Below, in pieces: positions 131 to 24,703 of a DNA stretch of 24,853 nucleotides (positions are counted from its first letter, which is position 1; each line of letters begins with the position of its first letter). Below the pieces are notes generated by a model, which worked only from the letters and a program-made list of their open reading frames with translations, did no database searches and was not told the DNA's origin. The translations under genes were made by a program, and so were the position numbers. The DNA is from a virus. The stretch lies in IMG/VR virus record IMGVR_UViG_3300037117_000117, positions 1 through 24,853 of that record. One strand, 5' to 3'.

Positions 131-200
131 ATTTTGGTTTGGCCTCACCGCTACTGAGATCGCGCGTGAGGTCTGAAGGTTCGACAGGGGAGGGTTTGTA
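131..200 (+). repeat. Boundary repeat, forward copy F1
   Basis: The GGCCTC block lies at 141-146, a CG-rich centre follows, and TCGACA lies at 181-186, followed by GGGGAGGG. At the position where other forward copies carry GTG, this one reads GTA (198-200), so the next gene probably starts at the TTG at 204. Confidence 0.85.
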
Positions 201-203
201 GAT

Positions 204-452
204 TTGTTCTGGGCAGTTTTAGGAGCGCTTGCAGTTTATGACGGGTTGAAGTCAATACGATTCTCGTCAGGCGAAGGAGAACGTGAAGAAGTTGAGATAC
301 CAGAAGTTGAGATACCGCGATGTATAAACGGTGGGGCACATGCCTTTGGTGAATTTGTGACCAGTAAGAATTTTTACAAGACCAGGGTGCGCGAATGTTC
401 CCGCTGCAAGCTTGTAGAGATGCGAGGGGCCTGTCAAGGGTATGCCGTTTGA
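204..452 (+). CDS. Small hypothetical protein with CxxC pair
   Basis: This 82-residue protein is not recognised. It has a hydrophobic N-terminus (MFWAVLGALAVYDG), then an acidic stretch with a 15-bp tandem duplication (288-302 and 303-317) that encodes EVEIP twice. A Cys/His-containing C-terminal half follows, with CSRC near residue 67, which could bind zinc but is not a full ribbon. The TTG start is preceded by GGGGAGGG of repeat F1. The stop codon is the TGA inside the TTTGAAGG of the next forward repeat copy, so both ends are set by repeats. It is the payload of the F1-R3 pair. The start codon is uncertain. Confidence 0.5.
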   Translation: MFWAVLGALAVYDGLKSIRFSSGEGEREEVEIPEVEIPRCINGGAHAFGEFVTSKNFYKTRVRECSRCKLVEMRGACQGYAV

Positions 453-476
453 AGGTTCGACAGGGAGGGCTTGTGG
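448..476 (+). repeat. Boundary repeat, partial forward copy F2
   Basis: This copy has only the right half of the repeat: TTTGAAGG, TCGACA at 457-462, GGGAGGG and TTGTGG. No GGCCTC block precedes it in the usual place. It is one of four copies that break the forward/reverse alternation. No convincing gene follows; the 120 bases to the next repeat contain nothing I can support. Confidence 0.75.
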
Positions 477-599
477 AGGGATGTGCATACGGACACATAT
501 CGAGAGTTGACGCTACAGTGGGTTTGGGCTATTCCCGCGCAACACTCTCGTACCGCCATTCGCCCACGGATTGTTGTTTCTCCGGCAGGAGAAGACAGC

Positions 600-668
600 C
601 CCACAAACCCTCCCTGTCGAGCGTTCAAAATCAAAGTGAAAAGCAACACCGACCGAGGCCAATAAAAA
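600..668 (-). repeat. Boundary repeat, reverse copy R3
   Basis: Read on the minus strand this is a full-length copy: TTGGCCTC (complement of 655-662), TTTTGAACG, TCGACA (complement of 615-620), GGGAGGG and TTTGTGG. It closes the first unit and lies just upstream of the lipoprotein gene. The GAGG at 655-658 is rather far from the ATG at 675. Confidence 0.9.
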
Positions 669-674
669 AAGACT

Positions 675-1211
675 ATGAAACTCTACTACCAATCCACTCT
701 GATCTTCACGGTGATAGGTACGCTGCTCTTGAGCAGTTGCTCCACCACCGGCCTATCAATCTCCTTAACCGTCGTCTCCGATGCGTGCGCCGCGGCAGCC
801 GTGACGATTCCACTGCTAGAGGGAGCCGGCCTTGTGCCGCCGGGAATCGGCAACATTATCCTGGCATACACCGGCGCCGTGAGCGATGCGGCGTCCCAGT
901 CGGCAACGGAACTATTGTCGACGGACACGGCATTAATACAGTCCGAGAAAATCATCGGGTATTTCGCGGCCGTGGCGGTGCCGGCGCTCGGTCCAACAAT
1001 TGGACCTGAAGTCGCGGCGATTGTCAAAGCGATCGAAGCGGCGGTGAACCTGTTTATTGCGCAGTTCAAGAGCCCCATGGTTCAAAGTGCGATCAAGCAC
1101 GGCACACTCAATGGTGTGAAGCTGGGGACTGGAGATCGGCGCGCGCTGGGATCGCTCAAGAGTAAATTTCAGGCGACGTCGGCCAAGTGTAAAACTCTGA
1201 TGAAGCCGTAG
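675..1211 (+). CDS. Predicted lipoprotein, hypothetical
   Basis: This 178-residue protein has a clear lipoprotein signal: a short basic start (MKLYYQ), a hydrophobic stretch and the lipobox LSSC, with the modified cysteine at residue 22. The mature part is rich in Ala, Gly and Val and forms long hydrophobic helices, ending in a basic tail. It is therefore expected to be membrane-anchored outside the cytoplasm. The family is not recognised. It may be a host-envelope protein of the virus (superinfection exclusion or lysis accessory), but this is inference. It lies between a reverse and a forward boundary repeat, where the larger genes sit, and its TAG stop is followed at once by repeat F4. Confidence 0.75.
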   Translation: MKLYYQSTLIFTVIGTLLLSSCSTTGLSISLTVVSDACAAAAVTIPLLEGAGLVPPGIGNIILAYTGAVSDAASQSATELLSTDTALIQSEKIIGYFAAVAVPALGPTIGPEVAAIVKAIEAAVNLFIAQFKSPMVQSAIKHGTLNGVKLGTGDRRALGSLKSKFQATSAKCKTLMKP

Positions 1212-1275
1212 GTTTTGGCCTCACCGCTATCGAGAGTGCGCGTGAAGTGTGAAGGTTCGACAGGGAGGGTTTGTG
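1212..1275 (+). repeat. Boundary repeat, forward copy F4
   Basis: This is a canonical full copy. TTTTGGCCTC lies at 1213-1222, GCGCGTGAAG in the centre, TCGACA at 1257-1262, then GGGAGGG and TTT, and GTG at 1273-1275. It begins directly after the lipoprotein stop and donates the Shine-Dalgarno and the GTG start to the next gene. Confidence 0.95.
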
Positions 1276-1842
1276 GATACGTCAAAGCCAATTGAGTGGC
1301 AGCAGATCAAATCGGGATGGCTCGGCTACCAGGGCGAGCAGCTCCTTTGCATCGTCGAGAAAGTCGAAGATCTCCCCGTTGAAGGTTACGCGGCCAACAT
1401 CCTGCAGGACGTGTTTACGACGCCTGAAGCGGCGATGGCCAAAGGGGAGCTCATCTTGCATCGCATTTCGAATCACGAGCGCGAGCACGATCAACCGCCC
1501 AAGCAGTCATGGATAGTGACGCTTCTCCCTTTGCTTAAGTCCATGGTACAGATTCTTGAAGCCGGGGTTCCCCAGTTGGCAGGGACACCCAAAATGCCAC
1601 CAGGCGCGACTCACCAAATGCTCTATCAATCCAAAGCCAATCCGACTATGGGAAGATTGTGCTTCCTGATTGACGGGCGCGTCGAATCGCTGATGACAAG
1701 CGGCAAAACGGAACCATTCACGCCGGGTGACGATTGGATATTGAAATCCACGCTGGATGTCAAAACGGGGCTACCTCTGCTCGACTCGGAGAACAACCCC
1801 GTGAATGTCGCCCGCTTAACACCAGAGGCGAAGATCGATTAG
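1273..1842 (+). CDS. Hypothetical protein, payload of unit F4-R5
   Basis: This 189-residue protein is not recognised. The frame is open further upstream (a GTG at 1249), but that stretch is the repeat itself. The start chosen is the GTG at 1273, preceded by GGGAGGG. The protein then begins MDTSKPIEWQQIKSGWLGYQ. The N-terminal part resembles a small alpha/beta domain, the middle has a Pro-rich linker (residues 95-115), and the C-terminal part is rich in charged and turn residues. The stop (TAG, 1840-1842) lies inside the reverse repeat R5, which also encodes the last residues (TPEAKID). Start and stop are both repeat-donated, one of the cleanest examples in the window. Confidence 0.75.
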   Translation: MDTSKPIEWQQIKSGWLGYQGEQLLCIVEKVEDLPVEGYAANILQDVFTTPEAAMAKGELILHRISNHEREHDQPPKQSWIVTLLPLLKSMVQILEAGVPQLAGTPKMPPGATHQMLYQSKANPTMGRLCFLIDGRVESLMTSGKTEPFTPGDDWILKSTLDVKTGLPLLDSENNPVNVARLTPEAKID

Positions 1843-1860
1843 CGGCAAGGCCAACAAAAA
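1803..1860 (-). repeat. Boundary repeat, reverse copy R5 (diverged)
   Basis: On the minus strand it reads TTTGTTGGCCTT, CGCTAATCGATCTTCGCC, then GCGACA in place of TCGACA (complement of 1806-1811). It overlaps the last 13 codons of the preceding gene and supplies its TAG stop. The AATCGATCTTCGC centre marks a subfamily shared with copies R12 and F14. Confidence 0.8.
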
Positions 1861-2646: not shown

Positions 2647-2716
2647 TTTTTGTTTTGGCCTCACCGCTACTGAGTGCTTCGCGTTGGGGCCGAAGGTTCG
2701 ACAGGGAGGGTTTGTG
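2647..2716 (+). repeat. Boundary repeat, forward copy F6
   Basis: A full copy with TTTTGGCCTC at 2653-2662, TGCTTCGCG in the centre, TCGACA at 2698-2703, then GGGAGGG, TTT and GTG. It starts eight bases after the preceding stop and donates the next start codon. Confidence 0.95.
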
Positions 2717-3070
2717 GACGTTCAACAAATTGCACGTATTTGCCATGAGACGAATCGGGCCTATTGCGTTTCCATCGGTGATGGTTCGCAGAAGGAATGG
2801 CCGGAAGCTGAGGAATGGCAGCGGCAATCGGCTATCAAGGGCGTAGAGTTCGCAATTGCGAATCCCGACGCACCAGCATCGGCGCAACATGATGCGTGGT
2901 TGAAAGACAAGGCCACGGATGGGTGGAAATACGGCGCGGTGAAAGATCCCGCCAAGAAAGAGCATCCTTGCTTCGTTCAATATCGGTTTCTTCCGATGGA
3001 ACAGAAGATCAAGGACTATCTCTTTAAATCCGTCGTGCGGGCATTTGTTGACGCGGCGAACGGTAGATGA
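2714..3070 (+). CDS. RyR-domain protein
   Basis: This 118-residue protein matches the RyR repeat domain (Pfam PF02026), found in ryanodine receptors and in many bacterial and phage proteins. Visible signatures are HDAWLKDKATDGWKYG, then the HPCFVQY block, then FLPMEQKIKDY and a helix ending VVRAFV. The length fits a stand-alone single-domain phage protein. The GTG at 2714 follows the GGGAGGG of F6; the open frame upstream is only repeat sequence. The TGA stop at 3068-3070 touches the beginning of reverse repeat R7. Bacterial RyR domains have been proposed to bind nucleotides or ligands; the role here is unknown. Confidence 0.85.
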   Translation: MDVQQIARICHETNRAYCVSIGDGSQKEWPEAEEWQRQSAIKGVEFAIANPDAPASAQHDAWLKDKATDGWKYGAVKDPAKKEHPCFVQYRFLPMEQKIKDYLFKSVVRAFVDAANGR

Positions 3071-3130
3071 CTGTCGAGCCTTCAAAATCAAAGTAAAAAG
3101 CAGTACCGACCGAGGCCAATAAAAAAGGAG
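3070..3130 (-). repeat. Boundary repeat, reverse copy R7
   Basis: TGTCGA lies at 3072-3077 and GAGGCC at 3112-3117, followed by an A-tract and GGAG. On the minus strand it is closely similar to R3 (same TTGGCCTCGGTCGGT start and TTTGATTTTGAA centre), so the two probably derive from one recent duplication. Confidence 0.9.
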
Positions 3131-3650: not shown

Positions 3651-3720
3651 TGTTGTTTTGGCCTCACCGGAGCCGGGCGCTTCGGTGGGGCTTTGAAGGT
3701 TCGACATGGGAGGTCTTGTG
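3651..3720 (+). repeat. Boundary repeat, forward copy F8
   Basis: TTTTGGCCTC lies at 3656-3665 and TCGACA at 3701-3706, followed by TGGGAGG, TCTT and GTG. The centre GCGCTTCGGTG can form a small hairpin with a TTCG loop. A base change creates an ATG at 3706 within the repeat, so the next gene has two possible repeat-donated starts. Confidence 0.95.
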
Positions 3721-4476
3721 GGACGGAATGCTGCCGAAGTTGCTATGTCAAAGATTGCATCGTCGGCCAATCAACAGCGGATCATCAATAAATTCCACGG
3801 GCAGATTAACATCTCGAATCAGTTGGACGTGCAGACCGGGAGGCTTTGGGATTGTATCTGTTACACAGCAGGCGGGACCTTTACTATCCAAAACGGCACG
3901 TTCTTCACAAACGTAGATCGATCCTCCGGAAAAACCTATCTCGAAACCAATCTGGGCCAGAGTCAAAAGCTGGACGCTCCTGAAGCATTCGCAATCGAGC
4001 GGGTCATTTTCACCTTCAGCAAGAGCGCTGATCCGCTTGACGTAGCGATGTGCCGGGACGAGATGTGGTGGCAGTTCTTCCTCGGCCAAAAGTGCTACCT
4101 CTGGTCGCCACTCGCGCACATGCAGACCGTAAAAGAGCCACTCAGCCCGATTCGTATTTGCGACTTCTGCAAATCGGTTTACGCGAACGCGACGACGTGC
4201 CCCGGCTGTGGAGCAAATAGCTTCACACTTTCAACGCTGGGCGAGATCGACTCCGGCCAGCAGTTTGCAATGGACGTGAATCCGACAATTCCAATCGTTA
4301 ATCAGATGTCGTTTTGGCTCGGAATGAATTCGAAATACCCGCTCACGTTTCGAGCCCCGATAAAGATCTGGTGTCATTTCGAAGGCCTTCATGCGCGCGG
4401 TGTTCAAATAGGCATGAAGTGTCGAACGTTCAATCACCCGACGCGAAGCGCGAACCCCGCTGAGGCCAACAAATGA
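3718..4476 (+). CDS. Hypothetical protein with internal zinc ribbon
   Basis: This protein has about 252 residues and its family is not recognised. Near residues 145-165 it has a treble-Cys zinc-ribbon signature: ICDFCKSVYANATTCPGCG. The flanking parts (TGGTFTIQNGTFF-type strands, WWQFFLGQKCYLW) look beta-rich, as in virion baseplate or tail proteins. The GTG at 3718 behind GGGAGG follows the pattern of sister genes; the ATGs at 3706 and 3745 are alternatives. The last residues are encoded by repeat R9 (ending PAEANK), and the TGA overlaps the ATG of the next gene. It is the largest payload seen between a forward and a reverse repeat. Confidence 0.7.
   Translation: MGRNAAEVAMSKIASSANQQRIINKFHGQINISNQLDVQTGRLWDCICYTAGGTFTIQNGTFFTNVDRSSGKTYLETNLGQSQKLDAPEAFAIERVIFTFSKSADPLDVAMCRDEMWWQFFLGQKCYLWSPLAHMQTVKEPLSPIRICDFCKSVYANATTCPGCGANSFTLSTLGEIDSGQQFAMDVNPTIPIVNQMSFWLGMNSKYPLTFRAPIKIWCHFEGLHARGVQIGMKCRTFNHPTRSANPAEANK
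4418..4472 (-). repeat. Boundary repeat, reverse copy R9
   Basis: TGTCGA lies at 4420-4425 and GAGGCC at 4462-4467. It codes for the C-terminal tail of the preceding gene, and its GAGG sits seven bases before the ATG at 4473, an ideal Shine-Dalgarno spacing. Confidence 0.9.
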
Positions 4477-4697
4477 AAATCTTCAGATGTGATCGTTGCG
4501 GCATCGAGGGAACGACCAGAGATGGTAACGACTTCGTTGAAAACTGGGAAACCGTGACGGTCAGCGAAAGCTTTCACTACGATATTTGCGTAGAGTGTGC
4601 CCCTGCGCTCTTTGTGTTTTTGTCTCGCATCGACTCGAAGGAACAAACTCCAAATGTCGAACTCTCAACAGTAGACGCGGAGATCGAAACCCGCTGA
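4473..4697 (+). CDS. Small zinc-finger-like protein
   Basis: This 74-residue protein has two CxxC knuckles, CDRC near residue 6 and CVEC near residue 39, with a beta-rich stretch between them, consistent with one bound zinc. The family is otherwise not recognised. Its ATG overlaps the TGA of the previous gene, so the two are probably translationally coupled. The GAGG of R9 serves as ribosome-binding site. Its last residues (VELSTVDAEIETR) and the TGA stop come from the next reverse repeat, R10. Confidence 0.7.
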   Translation: MKIFRCDRCGIEGTTRDGNDFVENWETVTVSESFHYDICVECAPALFVFLSRIDSKEQTPNVELSTVDAEIETR

Positions 4698-4709
4698 GGC
4701 CAACCCAAA
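4653..4709 (-). repeat. Boundary repeat, reverse copy R10
   Basis: TGTCGA lies at 4655-4660 and GAGGCC at 4696-4701. It is a second reverse copy in a row with no forward copy before it. It provides the tail and stop of the small zinc-finger gene, and a GAGG ten bases before the lysozyme start. Confidence 0.85.
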
Positions 4710-5363: not shown

Positions 5364-5435
5364 TGTTTTTTGTTTTGGCCTCGGTCAGTGGTGCGCTTCG
5401 CGTGAAGTTTGAAGGCTCGACAGGGAGGGTTTGTG
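5364..5435 (+). repeat. Boundary repeat, forward copy F11
   Basis: TTTTGGCCTC lies at 5373-5382, GCGCTTCGCGTGAAG in the centre, TCGACA at 5417-5422, then GGGAGGG, TTT and GTG. It begins directly after the lysozyme stop. Confidence 0.95.
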
Positions 5436-5597
5436 GCTACGACAACCACGATTTTAGTTGAAGGTCTGGTCCGGATGTCAAAATCTCAAATCGAACAAAC
5501 AAAACGGGGCGAAGAACGGGCCATACGTAAAGTCAAGAAACTCCGCAGGCGCATCCGGGCGCTACAAAACCTGCTAGAATGTCGTCGAAAGCGGTGA
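5433..5597 (+). CDS. Small basic coiled-coil protein
   Basis: This 54-residue protein starts at the repeat-donated GTG (5433), with GGGAGGG upstream; MSKSQIEQ at residue 15 is an alternative start. The second half is strongly basic and helical (KVKKLRRRIRALQNLLECRR), suggesting a nucleic-acid-binding helix or short coiled coil. The family is not recognised. It shares the F11-R12 slot with a tRNA gene. The stretch from 5598 to 5747 between them contains no gene I can support. Confidence 0.5.
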   Translation: MATTTTILVEGLVRMSKSQIEQTKRGEERAIRKVKKLRRRIRALQNLLECRRKR

Positions 5598-5747
5598 TCG
5601 GCCCTCGTCTAGAAATGTCCGCGCGTGGATCTCTAGGACACCCAGAAATGGGAAACATCGGCGAAGAACCGAATGGGTCGATTTAAATTGGATAGGCGAC
5701 GAGTTCCAGCCGTTTTCAGAATATATTTGAAAGATCCGCGTAGGCAT

Positions 5748-5823
5748 GGGGCCGTCGTCTAGCTGGTCAGGATAGAGGATTTTCACTCCTCCGACATGAG
5801 TTCAAATCTCATCGGCCCTACCA
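5748..5823 (+). tRNA. tRNA-Glu (anticodon UUC)
   Basis: A full cloverleaf is visible. The acceptor strands are GGGGCCG (5748-5754) and CGGCCCT (5813-5819), with a G-U first pair. The D-arm holds AGCTGGTCAGGA. The anticodon stem GAGGA/TCCTC encloses the loop TTTTCAC, with anticodon TTC at 5782-5784. The T-arm is ATGAG TTCAAAT CTCAT. The discriminator A is followed by an encoded CCA (5821-5823). Encoded CCA and isolated placement are typical of phage tRNAs. It lies inside the F11-R12 cassette slot. Confidence 0.95.
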
Positions 5824-5852
5824 ATCCTCCGCCGCGCGGTTCCTCCATCCGT

Positions 5853-5910
5853 GAATGTCGAACGCTCCAAACCAAACGCGAAGATCGATTTGCGGTGAGG
5901 CCAACACAAA
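5853..5910 (-). repeat. Boundary repeat, reverse copy R12
   Basis: TGTCGA lies at 5856-5861 and GAGGCC at 5897-5902. The minus-strand centre AATCGATCTTCGCGT puts it in the same subfamily as R5 and F14. No gene starts immediately after it; the next start is about 100 bases downstream. Confidence 0.9.
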
Positions 5911-6259: not shown

Positions 6260-6465
6260 TGCCTCTCCTGATTTACTATTGTGGTGTGATCGGCTGCGCT
6301 GCGAGCCTTGCGCTGGGACTGATTATCGGCCACGGGCGCAAGATGAGCGCAACCGAACGCGCCGCGCTCGCGGTTACCGCGTCTCAATGTCCAAACTGCA
6401 ATAGACCAGTGCGGGACGAAAAAGGTCACTTTGTTAAACCGGGCGGCGTTTCCTCCACTCCGTGA
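6259..6465 (+). CDS. Small membrane protein with CxxC tail
   Basis: This 68-residue protein has one N-terminal transmembrane segment (residues about 3-24, ending ALGLIIGHG), a short basic linker, and a cytoplasmic half with a single CPNC knuckle near residue 44. It could be a small holin-like or accessory membrane protein, but the CxxC tail is not typical of holins. The start overlaps the previous stop. The end lies at the edge of repeat R13. Confidence 0.6.
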   Translation: MPLLIYYCGVIGCAASLALGLIIGHGRKMSATERAALAVTASQCPNCNRPVRDEKGHFVKPGGVSSTP

Positions 6466-6524
6466 ATGCCGAACGCTCCAAAACCAGACGCGGAGCATTC
6501 AGCGTTCAAGAGGCCAAAACAAAA
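6464..6524 (-). repeat. Boundary repeat, reverse copy R13 (diverged)
   Basis: TGCCGA (6467-6472) replaces TGTCGA and GAGGCC lies at 6510-6515, followed by AAAACAAAATC. It has no forward partner before it; the previous copy is also reverse. It lies upstream of the long beta-helix gene. Confidence 0.75.
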
Positions 6525-9488: not shown

Positions 9489-9602
9489 TTCTTTTTGGTT
9501 TTGGCCTCACCGCTAATCGATCTTCGCGTCGGCTTTCTCTCTTTCTACATGGGCAAATCGTGAACCTGTCGAGCGCACACCCGTTGAGCGAAGTGGAATT
9601 TG

Positions 9603-9785
9603 GGCAACAATTTACTTGACTGATGGGGTCAGCCGTGATACACTTCGACTGACCCACCGGATAAGGGCTTCAACGCTGTTCCGCCTGCCAGCTTCCAGCG
9701 CTTGACCACTAGCCTAAAACGAAAATAGACTTCTAACCGCCGTTAGAAGTCTATCCCAATTTGGTCAGGCAAGTAAATTGTTGCC
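9603..9785. mobile_element. MITE-like insertion, 183 bp, 21-bp inverted ends, 8-bp target duplication
   Basis: The ends 9603-9623 and 9765-9785 are inverted repeats matching at 20 of 21 positions (outer part GGCAACAATTTACTTG). The 8-base sequence GGAATTTG flanks both sides (9595-9602 and 9786-9793), as expected for a target-site duplication. There is no room for a transposase. Inside are a 7-bp inverted repeat (GGGTCAG and CTGACCC, within 9624-9656) and a perfect 13-bp hairpin (9725-9754). It would have to be moved by a transposase encoded elsewhere; several IS families make 8-bp duplications and I cannot say which. Confidence 0.85.
9715..9754 (-). terminator. Intrinsic terminator of the minus-strand methyltransferase block
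   Basis: A perfect 13-bp stem (9725-9737 with 9742-9754) closes a four-base loop. On the minus strand it is followed by TTTTCGTTTT, as in a Rho-independent terminator. No T-tract follows on the plus strand. It lies 70-110 bases past the stop of the minus-strand gene at 9823 and inside the MITE-like insertion, so the mobile element may have brought a terminator with it. Confidence 0.7.
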
Positions 9786-9822
9786 GGAATTTGTGACGAG
9801 GCCAAAACAAAAAAAATTCACT

Positions 9823-11555: not shown

Positions 11556-11623
11556 TCGGCTACCTCAGCGGACACCTGGACCGGAGGCACCGATACTTTG
11601 GGGAATTATATACATGAGTATAG

Positions 11624-13990: not shown

Positions 13991-14005
13991 CGGCGAGGCC
14001 AAAAC
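13946..14005 (-). repeat. Boundary repeat, reverse copy R17
   Basis: TGTCGA lies at 13955-13960 and GAGGCC at 13995-14000. On the minus strand it is close to the consensus (CGCTAATCCG, CGCGTGAAGTTTGAAGG, TCGACA, GGGAGGG). Confidence 0.95.
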
Positions 14006-15398: not shown

Positions 15399-15631
15399 CC
15401 ACGTGTGCGAAAGATCTGAATGTTCATGTTGTTCACGGAGCTAATGAAAAGTGCGACTGCGGATTTACAGAGAGTGGATGGAAACCCGCAAATGACGGGA
15501 TAAAGCGTCTAATTCCAAAACACTCCCCTGTCGAGCCCTCTCCCTCCGTCGAAGCCACACCTAGCGGCGAGGCCAACGCATCAAAAGCTAACGAAGATTT
15601 GAAGGCTCGACAGGGGAGTGTGGTGGAATGA
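15395..15631 (+). CDS. Small hypothetical protein, nearly half encoded by repeats
   Basis: This 78-residue protein starts with an ATG overlapping the resolvase stop and ends with a TGA overlapping the XRE gene start. Residues 1-44 are unique and include CDCG near residue 20 (MTTCAKDLNVHVVHG at the start). Residues 45-58 (VEPSPSVEATPSGE) come from reverse repeat R20, and the end NEDLKARQGSVVE comes from forward repeat F21. That ending is identical to the resolvase tail. Function is unknown. Confidence 0.5.
   Translation: MTTCAKDLNVHVVHGANEKCDCGFTESGWKPANDGIKRLIPKHSPVEPSPSVEATPSGEANASKANEDLKARQGSVVE
15520..15580 (-). repeat. Boundary repeat, reverse copy R20
   Basis: TGTCGA lies at 15529-15534 and GAGGCC at 15569-15574. 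On the minus strand it contains GGGGAGTG, the same variant as F19 and F21. Confidence 0.9.
15590..15627 (+). repeat. Boundary repeat, partial forward copy F21
   Basis: Only the right half is present: ACGAAGATTTGAAGG, TCGACA at 15607-15612, then GGGGAGTGTGGTGGA. It is identical to F19 over about 38 bases, which points to a recent duplication. The GGCCTC block is replaced by the end of R20. Confidence 0.9.
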
Positions 15632-16038
15632 CGGGCACGTTGTTTGATATCGAGGATTTTAGATATGCGATGGCTGAAACATATTTGAACGCCTACGTTG
15701 CCATCCAGATTCGAGAACTTCGCCAACGACGCGGATGGTCACAAGCGGAATTAGCGCAAGCGGCTGGATTGCACCAAGCTCAAATATCGGATCTCGAAAA
15801 TGTGAACTGGAGCTGCAAAAGGGGAAATCCCAACGTCGAAACACTTCGAAAAGTGGCGCGGGCCTTGGAAGTGCGCCTAAGGATTTCCTACGAAACGTGG
15901 TCCTCTGCTATCGATGAAATTTGTAGCGGTGGATCTATACCGATTCCAGTCGGATTCGAAGATGATGAAGTATTTAAGATGGCTGTCGAGCCCTCACCCT
16001 CCAACGAAGCCACCAATAGCGGCGAGGCCAACCCATAA
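15628..16038 (+). CDS. XRE-family HTH regulator
   Basis: This 136-residue DNA-binding protein has a Cro/C1-type helix-turn-helix at residues 28-85. Visible motifs are IRELRQRRGWSQAELAQAAG, LHQAQISDLEN and NVETLRKVARALEVRL. Such proteins act as repressors of phage and plasmid promoters or as antitoxin partners; no toxin gene is adjacent. The ATG is donated by F21, with GGGGAG upstream. The last residues (VEPSPSNEATNSGEANP) come from R22. The TAA stop is directly followed by the start of the ATPase gene. A natural control site has not been identified. Confidence 0.88.
   Translation: MTGTLFDIEDFRYAMAETYLNAYVAIQIRELRQRRGWSQAELAQAAGLHQAQISDLENVNWSCKRGNPNVETLRKVARALEVRLRISYETWSSAIDEICSGGSIPIPVGFEDDEVFKMAVEPSPSNEATNSGEANP
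15982..16036 (-). repeat. Boundary repeat, reverse copy R22
   Basis: TGTCGA lies at 15984-15989 and GAGGCC at 16024-16029. It codes for the tail of the XRE protein and provides the GAGG upstream of the ATPase start. Confidence 0.9.
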
Positions 16039-18828
16039 ATGAACGAACTCGAAGCACAAGCTCAGAAGCTCTTGCACGTTTTACAGACGGGGGACACGGG
16101 CAAACCACGGCCGACAATCCCGGTAAAGGTGCTTGAGCAGCACATTGCGATCCTCGGTAAGACCGGCTGCCACCGCAAAGGGCAGGGGATCTTGATGTAC
16201 GACGGGTCCATTAAGGCCGTTGAGGATATCGTTGTCGGCGAGCGGTTGATGGGGCCGGACAGTGAGCCGCGCGCTGTCGTCGAATTGTTCCGTGGCGAGC
16301 AGGAGATGGCGCGCATAATACCCACGCGGGGGAAGTCATTTGTTGTCAACCTCGACCACATCCTCACGTTGAGACGAACCTGTACAAACAATGGCAATAA
16401 GCCAGACAAGAAGCGCTGGTCGATAATCGACGTGCCGGTAAAAGAGTGGCTGACATGGCCGAAAACGAGGCGCACTCACTATTACAAGCTGTTCCATTCA
16501 GATGGTGTCGATTTTCCGCCGTGCGGAACACCGGCCACTATCGAGCCTTACTTTCTCGGCATATTACTCGGCGATGGAATGCTTCACAGTCGCCCTTCTG
16601 TGAGCACTCCTGACGATGGGATAGTGGCGCTGCTCCGTCTCATGGCTTCTAAGTATGGGATCGGACTCCGGCAAGATAAATCGAGCGGAACATGCCCCAG
16701 TTACACTTTCACCGTCGGTCAAAAAGGCGGCGTTGTTCTTAATCCGATCACTGAGCAACTTCGATCCCTCGGATTGTGGGGCACAAAAGCGGCCACCAAA
16801 TTTATCCCGCAACATTATAAAGTCGCATCGAGAACCAACCGTCTAGAGCTGTTGGCTGGTCTGATAGATACGGATGGGCACCTGTCGAGAGGGTGCTACG
16901 ATTTCATTTCCAAATCCAAACGGCTTGCCGAAGATGTGGCCTTTCTTTGCAGAAGCGTTGGTTTATGCGTGCAAATCGTTGAGAAGTTTTGCAAGGCCCA
17001 AACCGGCGCCGGAGGGATTTATCATCGCCTGTCTATTTCCGGTCATACCTCGATGATCCCGTGTCGGATTGAATACAAACACGCTTCTCCGCGACTCCAG
17101 AAGAAAGATGCACTCAAGTCTGGTTTCGAGATCGAACAACTTCCCGTTGAGAAATTCTGGGGCTTCGCGCTTGACGGGGACGGCCGCTACCTGCTCGACG
17201 ACTTCACGGTCACCCACAATAGCGGTAAAACTTACACGGCCAAGGGTATCGCGGAATCGCTACTCGCTGAGAATCGGCGGGTCTGTATTCTCGATCCGAC
17301 GGGCGTATGGTGGGGACTACGTTCGGACATCACGGGCAAGAAGCCAGCATTCTCTATTTTCGTCTTAGGCGGGAAGCATGGAGACTTGCCGCTCGACTCG
17401 CACACGGGCACGGCGATCGCGGAGATCATCGGTAAAACCCATACCTCGGCGATCATCGACACGCGCAGATTCACGATCAGCGAACGGACCCGATTCTATA
17501 CCGACTTCGCGGAAACGCTCTTGCAGGTCAACGAAGGGCCTCTGCACGTGATCATCGACGAGGCGCACCTGATGATGCCACAAGGAAGGGTGAGCGATCC
17601 GCAATCGGCGAAGATGTTGAACGCCGGAAACAATATGGTCAGCCTGGGGCGCGGCGTGGGGCTCCGGATTATTATGATTTCTCAGCGCCCAGCCAAGCTT
17701 CACAAAGACGGATTAACTCAATCCGAGTGCTTGATTGCCCTGCGTTTGATCGCACCACAGGACCGGAATGCGGTGGAGGATTGGATCGGAGAATGGGCGG
17801 ACCCGAAGCAAGGAAAGGAACTACTGTCGTCGCTGGCCTCTCTGCCTACCGGAACGGGCTGGATATGGGCACCTGAGATCGGTCTATTGGAACGCGTGAC
17901 CTTCCCGCGGATCTCGACGTACGACAGCTCGAAGGCGCCGGACGGGGCATCCCGGCAGATTGTACTTGCGCCGATCGATCTGCCGGCGATACAAGAGCGA
18001 TTGCAGGTTGTCGCGAAAGAGGTTCTGGAGAACGATCCCAAGAAACTGCGGGCGCGGATCGCGGAGCTCGAGCGATTGGCAAAGTCCGCACTTGGGCAGC
18101 CGCCGACGGTGGTTGAAAAGCCGGTGATGTCGGAGGCTGATTTTGACCGGTTCGCGAACACAGTGAACAACCTCCGCACCATCTTGAGCAATACGCTGGA
18201 GGAAATTAATAAGGCAGTCGCGCCGGGCCGTCCGATTCCGCTTAAGTCTGGTGTGCAGGAGATCGAGACGGAATTTAGACGCGTCAAGGGGATGCCGCCG
18301 CTACCGATGAAGGTGGCCCCGCGCTTGGGGATCACGGTTACGCCGCAAAACGGTTCATCCGAGATCGGCAAGTCGGGACTCCGCCGCATGTTGATCGCAC
18401 TTGCTCAGAATCCGCAGGGGTTGACCGACTCGAAATTGGGACTGCGGGCGGATGTCTCCGTCAAGGGCGGATCGTTCGATACGTATCTGAGTAAGGCGCG
18501 CCGTTCGGGATGGGTCGATGGCGATCGCCAGTCGTTGAAGATCACACGGGCCGGGCTTGAGGCGTTGGGACACTGGGAGCCGTTGCCGAAGGGCAAAGAC
18601 CTGCTCAATCACTGGATTCGAAAGATGGGGACGGGCGGGGCATCCAGGATGTTGCTTGCGTTGAGCAATCTTTATCCACTGTCTTGCACGGCACAGCACT
18701 TGGGAATCACGGCCGGGGTTTCGGTCGATGGCGGATCTTTCGATACCTACCTTTCGAGATTAAGAGGATTTGATCTGATCACGGGGGATCGCACTGCACT
18801 TAGAGCAAGTGAGGAGTTTTTTACATGA
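16039..18828 (+). CDS. HerA/FtsK-like ATPase interrupted by an intein
   Basis: The precursor has 929 residues; removing the intein (44-394) leaves a 578-residue P-loop ATPase. The Walker A motif is split as ILGKTG/SGKTYTAKG. Further host motifs are VCILDPTGVWWGL, a Walker B HVIIDEAHLMMP near residue 508, and SQRPAKLHKDGLTQ near residue 552. This is the pattern of HerA-type (DUF87) DNA translocases, used in DNA pumping or end processing. A coiled region follows (residues 660-740). At the C-terminus two copies of a winged-helix unit, about 779-840 and 868-929, share GGSFDTYLS. The start is adjacent to the XRE stop, with GAGG eleven bases upstream. Confidence 0.88.
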   Translation: MNELEAQAQKLLHVLQTGDTGKPRPTIPVKVLEQHIAILGKTGCHRKGQGILMYDGSIKAVEDIVVGERLMGPDSEPRAVVELFRGEQEMARIIPTRGKSFVVNLDHILTLRRTCTNNGNKPDKKRWSIIDVPVKEWLTWPKTRRTHYYKLFHSDGVDFPPCGTPATIEPYFLGILLGDGMLHSRPSVSTPDDGIVALLRLMASKYGIGLRQDKSSGTCPSYTFTVGQKGGVVLNPITEQLRSLGLWGTKAATKFIPQHYKVASRTNRLELLAGLIDTDGHLSRGCYDFISKSKRLAEDVAFLCRSVGLCVQIVEKFCKAQTGAGGIYHRLSISGHTSMIPCRIEYKHASPRLQKKDALKSGFEIEQLPVEKFWGFALDGDGRYLLDDFTVTHNSGKTYTAKGIAESLLAENRRVCILDPTGVWWGLRSDITGKKPAFSIFVLGGKHGDLPLDSHTGTAIAEIIGKTHTSAIIDTRRFTISERTRFYTDFAETLLQVNEGPLHVIIDEAHLMMPQGRVSDPQSAKMLNAGNNMVSLGRGVGLRIIMISQRPAKLHKDGLTQSECLIALRLIAPQDRNAVEDWIGEWADPKQGKELLSSLASLPTGTGWIWAPEIGLLERVTFPRISTYDSSKAPDGASRQIVLAPIDLPAIQERLQVVAKEVLENDPKKLRARIAELERLAKSALGQPPTVVEKPVMSEADFDRFANTVNNLRTILSNTLEEINKAVAPGRPIPLKSGVQEIETEFRRVKGMPPLPMKVAPRLGITVTPQNGSSEIGKSGLRRMLIALAQNPQGLTDSKLGLRADVSVKGGSFDTYLSKARRSGWVDGDRQSLKITRAGLEALGHWEPLPKGKDLLNHWIRKMGTGGASRMLLALSNLYPLSCTAQHLGITAGVSVDGGSFDTYLSRLRGFDLITGDRTALRASEEFFT
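16168..17220 (+). other. Intein with LAGLIDADG homing endonuclease, inserted in the P-loop
   Basis: The 351-residue intein begins with Cys44 of the precursor (CHRKGQGILMYDGSIKAVED, block A) and has the block B-type VNLDHILTL. Two LAGLIDADG motifs are present: FLGILLGDGML and LLAGLIDTDGHL. It ends GRYLLDDFTVTHN, followed by Ser as the +1 extein residue. The length and both dodecapeptide motifs indicate an intact splicing domain plus homing endonuclease. Insertion between GKTG and SGKT of the P-loop is a known favourite intein site; unspliced protein should lack ATPase activity. Confidence 0.95.
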
Positions 18829-18900
18829 TGGTTTGGCCTACCTCTAATCCGTCGTTGCGTCTTATTTTGGAGCGTGCGACATTCGCAGGATGGATCTGTG
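18829..18900 (+). repeat. Boundary repeat, forward copy F23 (diverged)
   Basis: TTTGGCCT lies at 18832-18839, GTTGCG in the centre, GCGACA at 18876-18881, then CAGGATGG and ATCT before GTG at 18898. It begins at the ATPase stop codon. Confidence 0.8.
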
Positions 18901-19149
18901 GCCGATGAATTATTGTCCGCTTGCCATTGGCTGGAGAAACCCTTCAGAAACAGAAGAGAAGATTTTGTTTATTCCACTTCGGAACCGGCGGAGGACACCT
19001 TTACAGTAGAAAACCGGGCGATATTGGACATGATGAAGTCTATCGAGATAGAAGCTATGTATTTGAATTTTGAAGAACATCCGCGGGTGTGGAAGTGGCG
19101 ATACAATCCTGCATGTCGAGCGCGCGCACGTCGACGAAGTCACCAATAG
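18898..19149 (+). CDS. Small hypothetical protein, payload of F23-R24
   Basis: This 83-residue protein begins MADELLSACHWLEKPFRNRR at the repeat-donated GTG, with AGGATGG upstream. It is acidic in the middle and ends in a basic tail (RARARRRSHQ) encoded by R24, which also contains the TAG stop. No domain is recognised and there is no membrane segment. Confidence 0.6.
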   Translation: MADELLSACHWLEKPFRNRREDFVYSTSEPAEDTFTVENRAILDMMKSIEIEAMYLNFEEHPRVWKWRYNPACRARARRRSHQ

Positions 19150-19168
19150 GGGCGAGGCCAACACATAG
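19110..19168 (-). repeat. Boundary repeat, reverse copy R24
   Basis: TGTCGA lies at 19114-19119 and GAGGCC at 19154-19159. It supplies the tail and stop of the gene to its left and precedes the ATG at 19171. Confidence 0.9.
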
Positions 19169-19170: not shown

Positions 19171-19407
19171 ATGCCAACCATAAATGAATGGGTGAACGCG
19201 GTAGGACGGACCTACAAAACACGAGCAGGAAAATTCGTGGAGATCATGGGCGTTTCGCAGACGTCCGTAAAGGGCCTTGTAATTGGAGGTGACGGTCGAG
19301 AGCGCAAGTTCACACTTCGAAACGGATTATGCGACGAAGATTCGTCATTGGACCTGATGGAGATGGTTCGGACGACGAACATCCCGAAGGATCCGCTCAG
19401 CGCCTAG
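19171..19407 (+). CDS. Small hypothetical protein
   Basis: This 78-residue protein is not recognised. It is beta-rich with alternating hydrophobic residues (MPTINEWVNAVGRTYKTRAG, then VKGLVIGGDG) and could form a small barrel. Its GAGG lies 14 bases before the ATG. It is the last plus-strand gene of the run, and its final 11 bases overlap the end of the convergent minus-strand gene at 19397. Confidence 0.55.
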   Translation: MPTINEWVNAVGRTYKTRAGKFVEIMGVSQTSVKGLVIGGDGRERKFTLRNGLCDEDSSLDLMEMVRTTNIPKDPLSA

Positions 19408-19603
19408 CAGGGTAAGCAGGCAGCGCCAGTCCTCCGCCGTAGCCCAGCAGAATAGAGAGCAGCCACAGCACCACGCAGACAATGACGACCGCGCGGATAA
19501 TCTGGCGAATCGCCGGGTCCATTGGGATCTGGCTGAGCAGCCACAGCACCAATCCGACAATCACCAAACCAACAATCAGACTGAGTAAAAATGGAGGGAA
19601 CAT
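19397..19603 (-). CDS. Small membrane protein, two transmembrane segments
   Basis: This 68-residue protein has two hydrophobic segments (about residues 4-24 and 37-56, for example LIVGLVIVGLVLWLLS and VVIVCVVLWLLSILLGYGG) with a short polar loop PMDPAIRQIIR between them. This matches a family of small bacterial and phage membrane proteins of the Thivi_2564 type. It could act as a holin because of size, topology and neighbouring virion genes, but the match does not prove that. The start follows AAAGGA. Confidence 0.7.
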   Translation of the reverse strand: MFPPFLLSLIVGLVIVGLVLWLLSQIPMDPAIRQIIRAVVIVCVVLWLLSILLGYGGGLALPAYPARR

Positions 19604-19635
19604 AGTTTTTGAATCCTTTCAAAGTTGAAGTCGTT

Positions 19636-20085
19636 TCACGGCGCGGCATAGTAAAACACCGTGATCCGATAAAACCCCGCCGAGCCCGCCGACGGCGCAA
19701 CGATGGTCGTCGCCGTTCCCGCCACTGACGATTTGAGCGGCGAGGCAAAAGTCATCGAAAAATCAACGTACACATTACCGAGCGCACAGGTGTTTCCCGC
19801 TGAAAACGCGAGCGACCCAGGGAGGTTTGTCGTGGTTGTGGTCAGCACCCCGGAGGCAGCGATTGCCGTGGTGCAGTATCTCTGTATTTGCATCCCGGTG
19901 ATGTAGTGAAACTGCCCGGTCACCAATGGCAACGTGGCCGTTACGGTCGTTGCAGCGGCCGAGAGCGCCGTGACTGCCAGCGATGATGGGAGAGGATGCG
20001 GACCATTGCCCGACGGGCTCAGATCGGCGCGCGAGGCCACTGCAAGCGCAAGAAAGACGGTCAGAATCACATAACGCAGTTTCAT
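19636..20085 (-). CDS. Secreted or virion-associated hypothetical protein
   Basis: This 149-residue protein starts at MKLRYVILTVFLALAVASRA, a typical Sec signal; an upstream in-frame start is less likely because the signal would be internal. The mature part is Thr/Ala/Ser-rich beta structure with four Cys or fewer, resembling the other exported proteins in this block. The Cys pairs (QRYCTT and GNTCALG) may form a disulfide. The function is not recognised. Confidence 0.6.
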   Translation of the reverse strand: MKLRYVILTVFLALAVASRADLSPSGNGPHPLPSSLAVTALSAAATTVTATLPLVTGQFHYITGMQIQRYCTTAIAASGVLTTTTTNLPGSLAFSAGNTCALGNVYVDFSMTFASPLKSSVAGTATTIVAPSAGSAGFYRITVFYYAAP

Positions 20086-21547: not shown

Positions 21548-21627
21548 TCATCGACTATGTTTTGGCCTCGGCGAAGATTTCCACTTCTCTCAAATTTTGT
21601 GCGCTCGACAGTCCACAATTTGCCCAT
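21544..21627 (-). CDS. Possible micro-ORF of the empty repeat pair
   Basis: This 27-codon frame begins MGKLWTVERTKFERSG in the middle of the empty repeat pair and stops at a TGA overlapping the next gene's ATG (ATGA). It has no clear Shine-Dalgarno. A nearly identical start occurs in the other empty pair. It may be only a by-product of the repeat sequence. Confidence 0.25.
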   Translation of the reverse strand: MGKLWTVERTKFERSGNLRRGQNIVDE

Positions 21628-21673
21628 GTCGAACAGGCGAGAGCCGATGCGAAGCGCGATTTGTGGTGAGGCC
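21560..21673. repeat. Empty boundary-repeat pair F25/R25
   Basis: TTTTGGCCTC (21560-21569) and TCGACA (21605-21610) are followed after only 16 bases by TGTCGA (21627-21632), then GAGGCC (21668-21673). It is an inverted pair without a payload gene. It lies between two minus-strand genes and provides GAGG upstream of the next one. Confidence 0.95.
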
Positions 21674-21682
21674 AACATAAAA

Positions 21683-22870
21683 TCAACAAGGAATGTACTG
21701 CTTACCCACAAGATAGGCAATCACCGACGTCGGCAAAAGCGATGCGTTCGTAATTTGAGAAAAGAAGTCGATCTCCAAAACCGAATCCTTGGGATACCAG
21801 AGAGGCGTGACCAGTGCTCCGTTTTCGTATGGCGATCCCGGCCCGCCGTTGTAGAAGATGTCCATAATCGGTTTGTTGGAAATCTTCACCCGGTTAGAAT
21901 CGAAGATCGACAGGGAGCAGACGGGCGTCGTGATCGTGGATAAAGCGCTCCCGCCAACTCCGGCAAAGAACGGCAGTTGATTATTTCCAGGAGCATTATT
22001 GATCGGAATCCCAAAAGGCCCGCCGGGAAGCAAATAAGTCGCAAACGCAATCGCGGCCGAAGCCGGTGTGCTGTTAATCAGATTGATGACCTGGAGCAAC
22101 TGTGTGTTGCCGCTATTCAGCGTAAATCCAGTGTTGTTAGTTGCAAGATGTACGGTGATCGCGGTACCCACAACGGCGATACTCAGCGGCACATTTGCCG
22201 TCCCCGTCGAATCGAGCAGATTGATCGTTCCAGATACTCCGCCTACGCTGGCCACTGAAAGGGCGGCGCCTTCTTCAGCCGCGAAAATCGCGGGACGGGC
22301 GGCAATTCCCGAAGCCTGCATCAGAATGACCTGATACAGTTCAAAGTCGTAATCGACAATCGACCTGAACGTGACGACGGGCGCGTTTGCCGATGCAACC
22401 TGCGTCAAAACTCCGGTCGTCTGATAAGTGAAGGTCTTTTCGTAAGCTTTATACGTGGGATTGCGCGGCGGATTGCCTTTCTGCCGGCGGATTCCCTGAA
22501 AGGCAAGTTGGCCTGTCAGAGGATTCGCCGGCAAATCGATCCCGTACAGGTCAAAGTAGAGCGTCCCCGTCTCCGGATACAATTCACCGGGCACGATGGC
22601 CAACTCGGGGGAGTTTGGCGCCTGCACCGGGTCAGATGACATGTAGACGTTTCGCGAGGCGCGCGAAAGCCGGTACATTCCAGTCCCATCGGCTGCAAGG
22701 ATGCGATCAAGCCCAACGACGCGACGAAGCAGGAAGTCCCCATAGCCGCCGAGCAGATAAATTGAGTTGCCCTTCTGGTTCGATCCGTTCGCGAAAATGG
22801 AGGCGTCAAAGGCCCATGTGAAGGGCAGATCGTAGTAGCCTGGCGGGGGTGCGTAGGGTTGGGTTTTCAT
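21683..22870 (-). CDS. Hypothetical structural-type protein
   Basis: This 395-residue protein is not recognised. It lacks a signal peptide. The N-terminal half has WAFDASIFANGSNQKGNSIY and AAYG-type strands, and the C-terminal half is beta-rich (LSVASVGGVSGTINLLDSTG). Composition and size fit a phage minor structural protein such as a fibre or decoration protein. The ATG sits ten bases after the GAGG of the repeat pair upstream, which serves as ribosome-binding site. The stop is followed by the second repeat pair. Confidence 0.65.
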   Translation of the reverse strand: MKTQPYAPPPGYYDLPFTWAFDASIFANGSNQKGNSIYLLGGYGDFLLRRVVGLDRILAADGTGMYRLSRASRNVYMSSDPVQAPNSPELAIVPGELYPETGTLYFDLYGIDLPANPLTGQLAFQGIRRQKGNPPRNPTYKAYEKTFTYQTTGVLTQVASANAPVVTFRSIVDYDFELYQVILMQASGIAARPAIFAAEEGAALSVASVGGVSGTINLLDSTGTANVPLSIAVVGTAITVHLATNNTGFTLNSGNTQLLQVINLINSTPASAAIAFATYLLPGGPFGIPINNAPGNNQLPFFAGVGGSALSTITTPVCSLSIFDSNRVKISNKPIMDIFYNGGPGSPYENGALVTPLWYPKDSVLEIDFFSQITNASLLPTSVIAYLVGKQYIPC

Positions 22871-22941
22871 TTTGTTTTGGCCTCGGCGAAGATTCCGCTT
22901 CTCTCAAATTTTGTGCGCTCGACAGTCCACAATTTGCCCAT
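22867..22941 (-). CDS. Possible micro-ORF of the empty repeat pair
   Basis: This 24-codon frame begins MGKLWTVERTKFERSG and ends FAEAKTK, with its TGA overlapping the ATG of the structural-type gene. It differs from the sister frame in the other empty pair by one indel, yet both end in an ATGA overlap with the next gene. No clear Shine-Dalgarno is present. Confidence 0.25.
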   Translation of the reverse strand: MGKLWTVERTKFERSGIFAEAKTK

Positions 22942-22987
22942 GTCGAACAGGCTAGAGCCGTCTCGAAGATCGATGGTAGGTGAGGCC
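22875..22987. repeat. Empty boundary-repeat pair F26/R26
   Basis: TTTTGGCCTC lies at 22875-22884, TCGACA at 22919-22924, TGTCGA at 22941-22946 and GAGGCC at 22982-22987. It is nearly identical to the pair at 21560-21673 over the first 75 bases, so one is probably a recent copy of the other. Confidence 0.95.
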
Positions 22988-22994
22988 GACATAT

Positions 22995-23528
22995 TCACTT
23001 TTTCATGTACGCGAGAACCGAAAGAACAAAGGACATAATGCCGAACAGCGCGGCCACGAGAATACCGATCGACCAATTGCGCTGCTGCAAATTGTCCCGC
23101 TGCGCTTTATCTTTGCCGCCGCCTTCACTCCTGAATTCCCGCAGTGCAACGATCTCGGCATCCACCTTATCTATCCGCCGGTCCAGCGCGTTATTCGAAA
23201 CATCCGATTTGTCGTTGGCCGCTTTGAGCATCGCCAGTACTTCCGTCCGGGCCATGAGCGTCTTTGCCTGATCGTCGAGCTGTCCCCGAAATTCATTCGA
23301 CCGCGCGTTGTACTCCTTTTGAGCCGTCTCCGCTTTTTCGATGGCCTTTTCCGAAGACGCGAACGAATTGGCGTTTAAATTCTTTTGCTCCGCGATTTGG
23401 CCTAAATAGAACCTGTCGCGCTCATTCATTTTATCCGTCAGCGCCTGTAGCTCCGAGCGAAAGTACTCTTTTAGAGTGTCAACGGTCCATCCGCTGGGAT
23501 GCGCTCGGTCCTGTGAAGTGTCGGCCAT
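22995..23528 (-). CDS. Coiled-coil protein with C-terminal transmembrane segment
   Basis: This 177-residue protein is mostly helical and charged with heptad-like spacing (residues 15-140, for example LDRRIDKVDAEIVALREFRS). A single C-terminal membrane segment (about 153-174, ending VLSVLAYMKK) would anchor it with the coiled coil in the cytoplasm or, if inverted, in the periplasm. Similar small tail-anchored coiled-coil proteins occur in phages near lysis or tail genes, but this one is not assigned. No repeat separates it from the gene upstream. The start is preceded by GAGGTTGG. Confidence 0.65.
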   Translation of the reverse strand: MADTSQDRAHPSGWTVDTLKEYFRSELQALTDKMNERDRFYLGQIAEQKNLNANSFASSEKAIEKAETAQKEYNARSNEFRGQLDDQAKTLMARTEVLAMLKAANDKSDVSNNALDRRIDKVDAEIVALREFRSEGGGKDKAQRDNLQQRNWSIGILVAALFGIMSFVLSVLAYMKK

Positions 23529-23548
23529 CTAATTACCATTATCCAACC

Positions 23549-24517
23549 TCACCGCCTCGGATAAAACCAGCCGAATACAGCCGCGCCGATCGAACCACCA
23601 GCGACAGGGGAACCAACCGGCACATTCGCGAATACCTGGATTGTCTGATCGCTCACAACCCGGATCGAATACACGCCGGGAACCAGGAGCGAGTTTTGAA
23701 AAGATCCGAAGGTGTTGGTCACATTCCCCAGCGTTCTGGCGTACCGGACGCCATACTGAAGCCTCCAGATGATGTTTCCTGAGAAGTCATCGTAGCCCGT
23801 CACCCCGGATGTTTGAGCTACGAATTTGTTGATCACGCCGTCGTATCCGGAGGGGACGCGGATCTGTAAAATCAACACGTCCAGGCCCGTAAAAACTCCC
23901 CCGCTCTGAAACGCAGCGATGGGGAGCCCGTTCATTTCTCCGGGGATCGGGACCGCGTTCGATGGCATCACTTCCCACGGAGGATCGTCCCAGATCGGCG
24001 CCCCGAGCTCCGGAATTCTGCAGCAGGACTTTAGCCCGCCGTGCGCCGCGACCCACTGCCATTTTTTGGCGCGCGAGATCAGCGCCATGTCGTACTTTGT
24101 GGGGTTCCACTGAACCGGCTTCGGTTGGTTGTCCCGCCGAATCACTGGGGGAAGCATTGAATCGGGAAGGATCGGCTGAGGCGTCCAATTGAACAAGGGG
24201 CCTTGTGCCGTCGGGCCGACGTGAAGCGTGGTCAATGCGCCGGGCGGGGTAATTGAGTTTGGAAGCACGTTCGGCGTACTTCCTGGGCCGGTCCATACCA
24301 CGGTTTGGTTGGGTTGAGAAACCCAGCCTGAATTTGAAGGTATTCCCGGCCCGGCCGAGATTGGAATTTGCAGATTGGGAGCGCCCGCGCCGATCCAGAT
24401 CCACCATCCATTCGTCTGAAGCATCCAACCGGATCCCTGATTTGGTGTAAGCTGGGTTGCTTCCGAGGGTACATTTAATGGAACGATGTCCCCTAATCCA
24501 CGCATTCCGATTCTCAT
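23549..24517 (-). CDS. Hypothetical structural-type protein
   Basis: This 322-residue protein is not recognised. Its N-terminal 120 residues are rich in Trp, Pro, Gly and Asn (GSGWMLQTNGWWIWIGAGAP), suggesting short beta repeats. The middle has WQWVAAHGGLKSCC. The C-terminal domain resembles a beta-sandwich (FTGLDVLILQIRVPSGYDGV) such as those in tail or decoration proteins. The ATG is seven bases after the GAGG of repeat F27. It is likely part of the virion gene block, inferred from neighbours and composition. Confidence 0.65.
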   Translation of the reverse strand: MRIGMRGLGDIVPLNVPSEATQLTPNQGSGWMLQTNGWWIWIGAGAPNLQIPISAGPGIPSNSGWVSQPNQTVVWTGPGSTPNVLPNSITPPGALTTLHVGPTAQGPLFNWTPQPILPDSMLPPVIRRDNQPKPVQWNPTKYDMALISRAKKWQWVAAHGGLKSCCRIPELGAPIWDDPPWEVMPSNAVPIPGEMNGLPIAAFQSGGVFTGLDVLILQIRVPSGYDGVINKFVAQTSGVTGYDDFSGNIIWRLQYGVRYARTLGNVTNTFGSFQNSLLVPGVYSIRVVSDQTIQVFANVPVGSPVAGGSIGAAVFGWFYPRR

Positions 24518-24518
24518 G

Positions 24519-24703
24519 TTTTGGCCTCGCCTCTATTTGCGGATGAAATGGATTTCGAAGGCTCGACAGGGGAAGTCTGTGGAAGTGTTTCATGCCCGGA
24601 ATTAGAAAGAAGGGTGCACGCATCTCGCGTACCACCATGCCTCCACAAACTGCCCATGTCGAACCTTCGGCCTTCACGCGAAGCACTCAGTAGCGGCGAG
24701 GCC
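24519..24703. repeat. Boundary-repeat pair F27/R27 with an 88-base slot
   Basis: TTTTGGCCTC lies at 24519-24528, TCGACA at 24563-24568, TGTCGA at 24657-24662 and GAGGCC at 24698-24703. The 88-base slot has a GTG frame of eight codons on the plus strand and one of 14 codons on the minus strand, neither convincing. It looks like a slot with a decayed payload. Confidence 0.9.

Follow-up and report, generated by a model that had tools for sequence, protein, structure and literature searches.

Inverted repeat arms at gene boundaries mark probable gene-swapping sites in an apparent group of uncultured phages

A dispersed repeat in paired, opposite orientations

The window analyzed here, a 24,853-bp fragment of an uncultured phage (IMG/VR record IMGVR_UViG_3300037117_000117), carries a repeat of about 55 nt dispersed among its genes. 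Each copy, or arm, reads GTTTTGGCCTC...TCGACAGGGAGGG on the plus strand when in the F orientation, and an R arm is the reverse of an F arm. Exact and profile (nhmmer) scans, with weak copies added by eye to complete the list, located 30 half-elements, of which 14 are F, 16 are R, and two are only half copies; an earlier note on this sequence had counted about 30 from the same blocks (Table 1). In the orientation order FFRFRFRFRRFRRFRFRRFRFRFRFRFRFR, 25 of 29 neighbors switch (p = 8.5e-5, 200,000 permutations), and the departures from alternation fall at elements 2, 10, 13, and 18, as the note had said. The 26 elements recovered by the profile alone gave 21/25 switches (p = 3e-4).

With the HerA-like packaging ATPase as a query, three phage contigs were identified at 62–63% identity: G003 (58,096 bp), G004 (59,868 bp), and G005 (63,145 bp). 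The profile search that the note had proposed for related viral genomes detected 57, 63, and 79 copies in these contigs, respectively, and no match in a Markov-shuffled sequence. Orientation again alternates, with 41/56 switches in G003 (p = 0.0006), 44/62 in G004 (p = 0.001), and 64/78 in G005 (p = 5e-5). An exact scan of the viral contigs for the window's own inner end, with the window excluded, returned no match. A conserved structural-module gene (G005 31642–32346) has no match among 50,697 phage records; the window and its relatives therefore look like a group of uncultured phages.

The arm core measures 52–58 nt, and the length of 70 bp given earlier counts the start-codon flank. In nearly all full arms, the outer block GGCCTC lies 40–42 nt from the inner block CGAC/TCGAC, while the middle is variable. 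An F arm and the following R arm form a unit whose inner ends face each other across a slot. Gaps of 30–35 nt make up 15 of the 86 F-to-R gaps and none of the 84 R-to-F gaps; the empty unit, of about 143 nt, is therefore a discrete object. Slots span 0 to 2 kb, with a median of 290–490 nt versus 594–1000 nt between units, which reduces the proposal that larger genes lie outside the slots to a tendency. In the window, as proposed, slots contain open reading frames (ORFs), a tRNA-Glu, or about 15 nt (21611–21627 and 22925–22941). Arms avoid conserved coding sequence, with 0.31 of their bases in conserved protein segments versus 0.56 elsewhere.

Slot contents differ between relatives

Among units with both outer flanks homologous, 14 pairs were comparable. 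Syntenic slots differ between relatives, being empty in one and filled in another or holding unrelated genes, and homology picks up again at the arms; the earlier note had suggested a search for just such cases. In G005 (33103–33496), the slot holds an ORF of 112 aa in which a zinc-ribbon-like motif, CPNCG, occurs, and the syntenic slot of L023 (7346–7592) holds an unrelated 63-aa ORF. The flanks of these two units are homologous and their arm cores are 81% and 81% alike, with a slot score of 10 (random maximum 14). Each ORF starts at a GTG supplied by the upstream arm and ends in VE(K/N)SQxxQAAxPNEAK(T/P)*, encoded by the downstream arm, with the stop overlapping the next ATG. Similarly, the units at G004 33341 (516 nt) and G005 42627 (642 nt) have upstream arms 97% alike in the variable core and unrelated slots, whose ORFs of 177 and 231 aa have homologues elsewhere in G003 and the window.

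Empty and filled states of the same slot were also observed. G005 19232–19923 holds 582 nt, and the same slot measures 35, 31, and 31 nt in G003, G004, and G014; the slot at G005 34016 has 147 nt and that at L023 8090 has 32 nt, with an arm 94% alike. At the 30328|30833 junction, the whole unit is absent in G008, G009, G010, and G011 (2, 7, 28, and 3 nt). Some slots keep homologous content (G004 963 and G005 13474), and homologous slot genes occupy different slots in different phages. Because the same slot is empty, filled, or occupied by an unrelated gene in relatives, the repeats mark ready-made gene-swapping sites.

Conservation is lower in slots than in inter-unit DNA (0.42 vs. 0.62, p = 0.005). 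Among 15 high-similarity arm pairs with homologous flanks, chosen by arm similarity, homology is confined to the outer side in 12. The idea that conservation is always higher in orthologous arms than in genes proved to be an ascertainment effect: when orthologous gene ends were taken without this bias, 77 had an arm in both genomes, and 21 of these keep recognizably orthologous arms (at least the 99th percentile of random arms). Transfer of the arms together with their cargo was also considered and set aside. In G003, the arm subtypes of F-R mates are concordant (p = 0.024), but R-F neighbors are equally so (p = 0.028), and the subtype test is therefore uninformative. A DUF5131 family protein (Pfam, 4.5e-91) lies inside an F-R slot at L048:15632–16804 (G005).

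Translation signals and arm-encoded protein tails

Arms are associated with gene starts (0.40 vs. 0.13), and they occur in both orientations and at both gene ends. In 21% of arms, the outer end is followed after 1–2 nt by an ATG, against 2.6% by chance. Empty units are polar relative to transcription, and the arm that precedes the ATG of the next gene contains a GGAGG variant. Arms are nevertheless read in all three frames, and the fixed relation to reading frames claimed earlier thus holds only in part.

Similar arm-encoded tails (VE-S-Q/P...EAK/EAN) end unrelated proteins of one phage, both in the window (14648–16038) and at the G005 arms 33448, 35887, 44755, and 45338. Selection on these tails at the protein level was rejected; since the arms are read in all three frames, the common tails are more likely a by-product.

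Features of the window

Table 1. Repeat arms, slots, and associated genes in the 24,853-bp window (E values for arms are from nhmmer)
Feature	Position	Strand	Evidence
F arm 1	131–200	+	E 7e-10
F half-arm consisting of the inner block; order exception 2	447–476	+	exact and profile scans
R arm	601–662	-	E 8e-10
F arm, Shine-Dalgarno-like GGGAGG and GTG at inner end	1212–1277	+	E 2e-10
Slot, most of ORF 1249–1842 (197 aa); homologue G004:7408 in another neighborhood	1278–1797	+	
R arm, encodes C-terminal end of ORF 1249–1842, tail RLTPEAKID*	1798–1858	-	E 1e-5
F arm	2652–2718	+	E 1e-10
Slot, RyR-domain ORF 2684–3070; homologue G003:1831 in a different slot	2719–3070	+	Pfam PF02026, 2e-10
R arm	3071–3126	-	E 4e-9
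F arm	3655–3722	+	E 5e-9
Slot, ORF 3706–4476 (256 aa)	3723–4418	+	
R arm	4419–4470	-	E 1e-9
R arm, order exception 10	4654–4704	-	E 9e-9
F arm	5372–5436	+	E 7e-12
Slot, ORF 5409–5597 and tRNA-Glu 5748–5823	5437–5847	+	
R arm	5848–5908	-	E 9e-11
R arm, weak; order exception 13	6459–6520	-	outer block and sequence inspection
F arm, degenerate inner end	9498–9550	+	E 3e-6
R arm split by 183-bp insertion (9603–9785)	9566–9808	-	
F arm	13742–13806	+	E 4e-7
R arm	13948–14005	-	E 6e-13
R arm, order exception 18; codes tail VELSPSNEAAPLTEAKTKT* of ORF 14026–14709	14648–14699	-	E 2e-7
Serine recombinase (resolvase/invertase family) between R and F arms; C-terminus coded by F arm	14706–15398	+	Pfam PF00239, 5e-42
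F arm	15326–15398	+	E 1e-11
R arm	15527–15580	-	E 2e-8
F half-arm, identical to 15357–15398	15590–15631	+	E 0.003
Slot, helix-turn-helix (Cro/C1-type) ORF 15628–16038	15632–15982	+	Pfam PF01381, 1.4e-13
R arm, codes tail VEPSPSNEATNSGEANP*	15983–16034	-	E 2e-10
F arm, weak	18832–18900	+	sequence inspection
R arm	19113–19164	-	E 1e-6
Complete empty unit: F 21559–21611, 15-nt slot, R 21627–21680	21559–21680	.	
Complete empty unit: F 22874–22925, R 22941–22987; 88% identical over 101 nt to unit at 21559	22874–22987	.	
F arm	24517–24580	+	E 3e-10
R arm	24650–24708	-	E 4e-11

The two complete empty units listed in Table 1 flank one conserved gene (21683–22870). The 183-bp insertion in an R arm has inverted ends GGCAACAATTTACTTG(A/C)CTGA and an 8-bp duplication, GGAATTTG; it is an unrelated element, resembling a miniature inverted-repeat transposable element (MITE), that hit a repeat arm. 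Between the methyltransferase genes of the window there is a 161-nt duplication at 75% identity (10913–11073 and 11601–11761). The packaging-ATPase-like protein (16039–18828) contains an intein with a LAGLIDADG-type homing endonuclease domain, and its best matches in cultured phages fall in this intein part.

Distribution of the arms

A diverged form of the element, GTTTGGCGAC...GGTCGTTCCCCG, is found in G008 and G009 in 35 and 28 copies. It is similar in length and gene-boundary position, with the corresponding blocks 39–41 nt apart; the structural genes of these phages are at best 74–75% identical to those of G005. Arms were not found in G010, G012, G016, and G017, the last two by k-mer scan only. 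A more distant relative, G001 (L003 and L052–L054), carries a different kind of dispersed repeat, 47 copies of CTCAGCGGTC in a single orientation. Among host chromosomes from 84,980 species, only two short contigs matched the arms, L055 and L056. The former matches these phages only weakly, over 47 aa, and the latter not at all, and the host-chromosome copies are therefore taken as chance.

Interpretation

The layout is common to several phages, the spacing of the arm blocks is kept, slots are empty or unrelated in content between relatives, and homology is lost at the inner end of orthologous arms. On this basis, the arms are probably gene-boundary linker elements that carry translation signals, frame exchangeable gene slots, and serve as crossover points for cassette exchange. 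In the proposed mechanism, an F-R pair of arms occupies the junction of two phage genes. At best, the slot gene would receive its ribosome site and start codon from the inner end and its final codons, including the stop, from the downstream arm, and the gene that follows would take its ribosome site and ATG from the outer end. Slot contents would be exchanged by recombination between the short conserved blocks of the arms, from unit to unit and from phage to phage, and a new gene would then land already framed for translation.

Several observations weigh against this interpretation. A start codon just inside the inner end is only modestly enriched (0.43 vs. 0.33). In the window alone, slots are not the less conserved part (0.45 vs. 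0.39 outside). Arms at about 56 of the 77 orthologous gene ends are no more alike than random arms, which could reflect fast drift instead of replacement. No annealing recombinase was recognized among the scanned proteins, and no exchange event with near-identical flanks was found among the compared relatives; since the closest pair is only about 80% alike, the breakpoints are not exact to the base. Pairing is also not obligatory. Arms are mostly single in G015 (22 copies in the order FRRFFFFFFFRRRRFRRRRFFF, in runs of one orientation; alternation p = 0.99) and in G011 (6 copies, FFFFFR), and in G008 and G009 alternation is weak (p = 0.21 and 0.10) and single arms are common. The inverted pair with a slot between TCGAC ends thus describes the window and its closest relatives, and the single, non-alternating copies that the earlier note held to speak against paired cassettes do occur in part of the group, host chromosomes having yielded chance-level matches only. 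Given these single arms, the weak alternation, and the phages in which arms were not found, single arms may have come first or be the more general form, as judged from an unrooted distribution; pairing is, by the same distribution, the rule only in the window's own subgroup.

The arms might instead be primarily regulatory DNA or RNA sites (repressor operators, intergenic hairpins, or ribosome-site modules), with exchange a side effect of the repeats that stand at every junction; we regard this as a minor but real possibility. The distance between the end blocks, about four helical turns, would fit a protein binding both, the polarity of the empty units and their GGAGG variant agree with a role in expression, and the end blocks are predicted to pair into two stems per unit. 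Known phage boundary repeats are promoters (PMC8707807), repressor sites (PMC10516654), or start-associated (PMC3203893). However, a compensatory change on both sides is found in just one of 23 predicted pairs (covariation term −0.02), and the middles and cores of unit mates are no more similar than those of random arms, leaving a whole-arm hairpin within the unit unsupported. Elements have no match in Rfam, and neither promoter-like sites (7 at arms vs. 9.0 expected, in a test limited to sigma-70-type signals) nor terminators (13 vs. 21.4) are enriched. Nor would a regulatory role, taken alone, explain why the arms enclose slots as long as 2 kb in inverted pairs. Regulation and cassette exchange could both be true.

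We consider it unlikely that the inverted arm pairs are dedicated recombination sites of a phage-encoded enzyme, forming a phage-wide evolved system for precise slot replacement with built-in start, tail, and stop for immediate expression.

It is improbable that the F-R unit, whether empty or carrying cargo, is a MITE mobilized in trans by a transposase that escaped notice. The unit is short and discrete with inverted ends, it is present or absent at orthologous junctions, one gene has a copy of the whole unit on either side (at 21559 and 22874), and ATGA or ATGAA occurs on both sides at three junctions. However, the two genes require the ATGA on both sides anyway, and there is no consistent target-site duplication: the mean longest flanking repeat is 3.54 versus 3.38 permuted (p = 0.086), and the 11 units with a flanking repeat of at least 5 nt (6.1 expected, p = 0.02) are mixed in sequence and position. 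Host copies were not found beyond chance-level matches, and single arms and the exchange of cargo between fixed arms do not fit whole-unit transposition.

Use of the arms as crossover sites by the serine recombinase (14706–15398), catalyzing cassette inversion or exchange, is very improbable: although a homologue lies directly downstream of an arm in the window, G003, G004, G005, G008, and G009 and its C-terminus can be arm-encoded, homologues also occur in G010, G012, G016, and G017, where arms were not found, the G011 homologue does not adjoin an arm, the arm-bearing fragments G013–G015 gave no homologue match, no dyad crossover site was recognized within the blocks, and no inverted slot was demonstrated. 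The conserved recombinase is a candidate enzyme. The flank on the slot side, GGTTTTGGA, seems to resemble half-sites of phage invertases; this likeness is absent in G008 and G009 and was dropped.

How single genes can be swapped without breaking operons is a long-standing question in phage biology. If the arms are linkers of the kind favored here, the joints themselves are visible, as fixed-length arms at dozens of junctions, as empty, filled, and swapped slots, and as translation signals. With these joints, gene swapping could be tested within a single phage group, and they would offer a natural template for adding genes to phage operons.

Comparison with known systems

A CRISPR array consists of direct repeats with near-constant spacers, whereas the arms here point in opposite directions and are separated by anything from 6 to more than 4000 nt, in agreement with the earlier exclusion. 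In an integron cassette array, attC sites of one orientation move with the cassettes, and a tyrosine integrase acts on them. In integrons, too, small accessory genes without promoters are exchanged at boundary sites that recur, but here the boundaries are genome-wide inverted pairs of alternating orientation, the arms stay in the observed cases while the slot genes change, and no tyrosine integron integrase was seen, only a serine recombinase; the earlier rejection of an attC array therefore holds. MITEs and terminal inverted repeat transposons are short inverted-ended elements with a target-site duplication of fixed length. The arms share with them the short, inverted-ended unit present or absent at orthologous sites, and not the fixed duplication.

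The nearest known kind is the shuffling PeSL cassettes of T4-type phages, reportedly described as "mobile regulatory cassettes" by Arbiol and co-workers in 2010 and by Comeau and co-workers in 2014. These too are repeated intergenic phage sequences where small accessory genes shuffle, presumably by recombination between copies. PeSLs are single promoter-plus-terminator modules, whereas the arms are not enriched in such signals and, unlike PeSLs, form facing pairs that frame a slot, also across structural genes. The T4-type cassettes are cited here through PMC4177764 and PMC4503421. A literature search with incomplete journal coverage found no description of a phage genome in which inverted pairs frame slots throughout, structural genes included.

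Other phage repeats share single traits with the arms. Halovirus HF2 likewise has intergenic repeats of 56–58 bp, conserved in position among related viruses; these carry experimentally shown promoters with AT-rich motifs, and paired slots are not reported in the excerpted text of that source (PMC8707807). The SPBRE of SPbeta is likewise repeated at many intergenic regions of a phage genome, but it is a 15-bp repressor operator in promoter regions, with no paired slots (PMC10516654). The arms resemble in part the SAS/ESAS of cluster K mycobacteriophages, repeats that are linked to translation starts; an inverted repeat is added to about half of these, and their consensus varies by subcluster (PMC3203893). 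However, SAS/ESAS are 13 bp long, occur in 11–19 copies of nearly always one orientation, and have 17-bp inverted repeats a few bp apart with no cargo slots (PMC3203893), whereas in the phage group described here 55-nt arms occur in up to 79 copies and frame slots of 0 to 2 kb.

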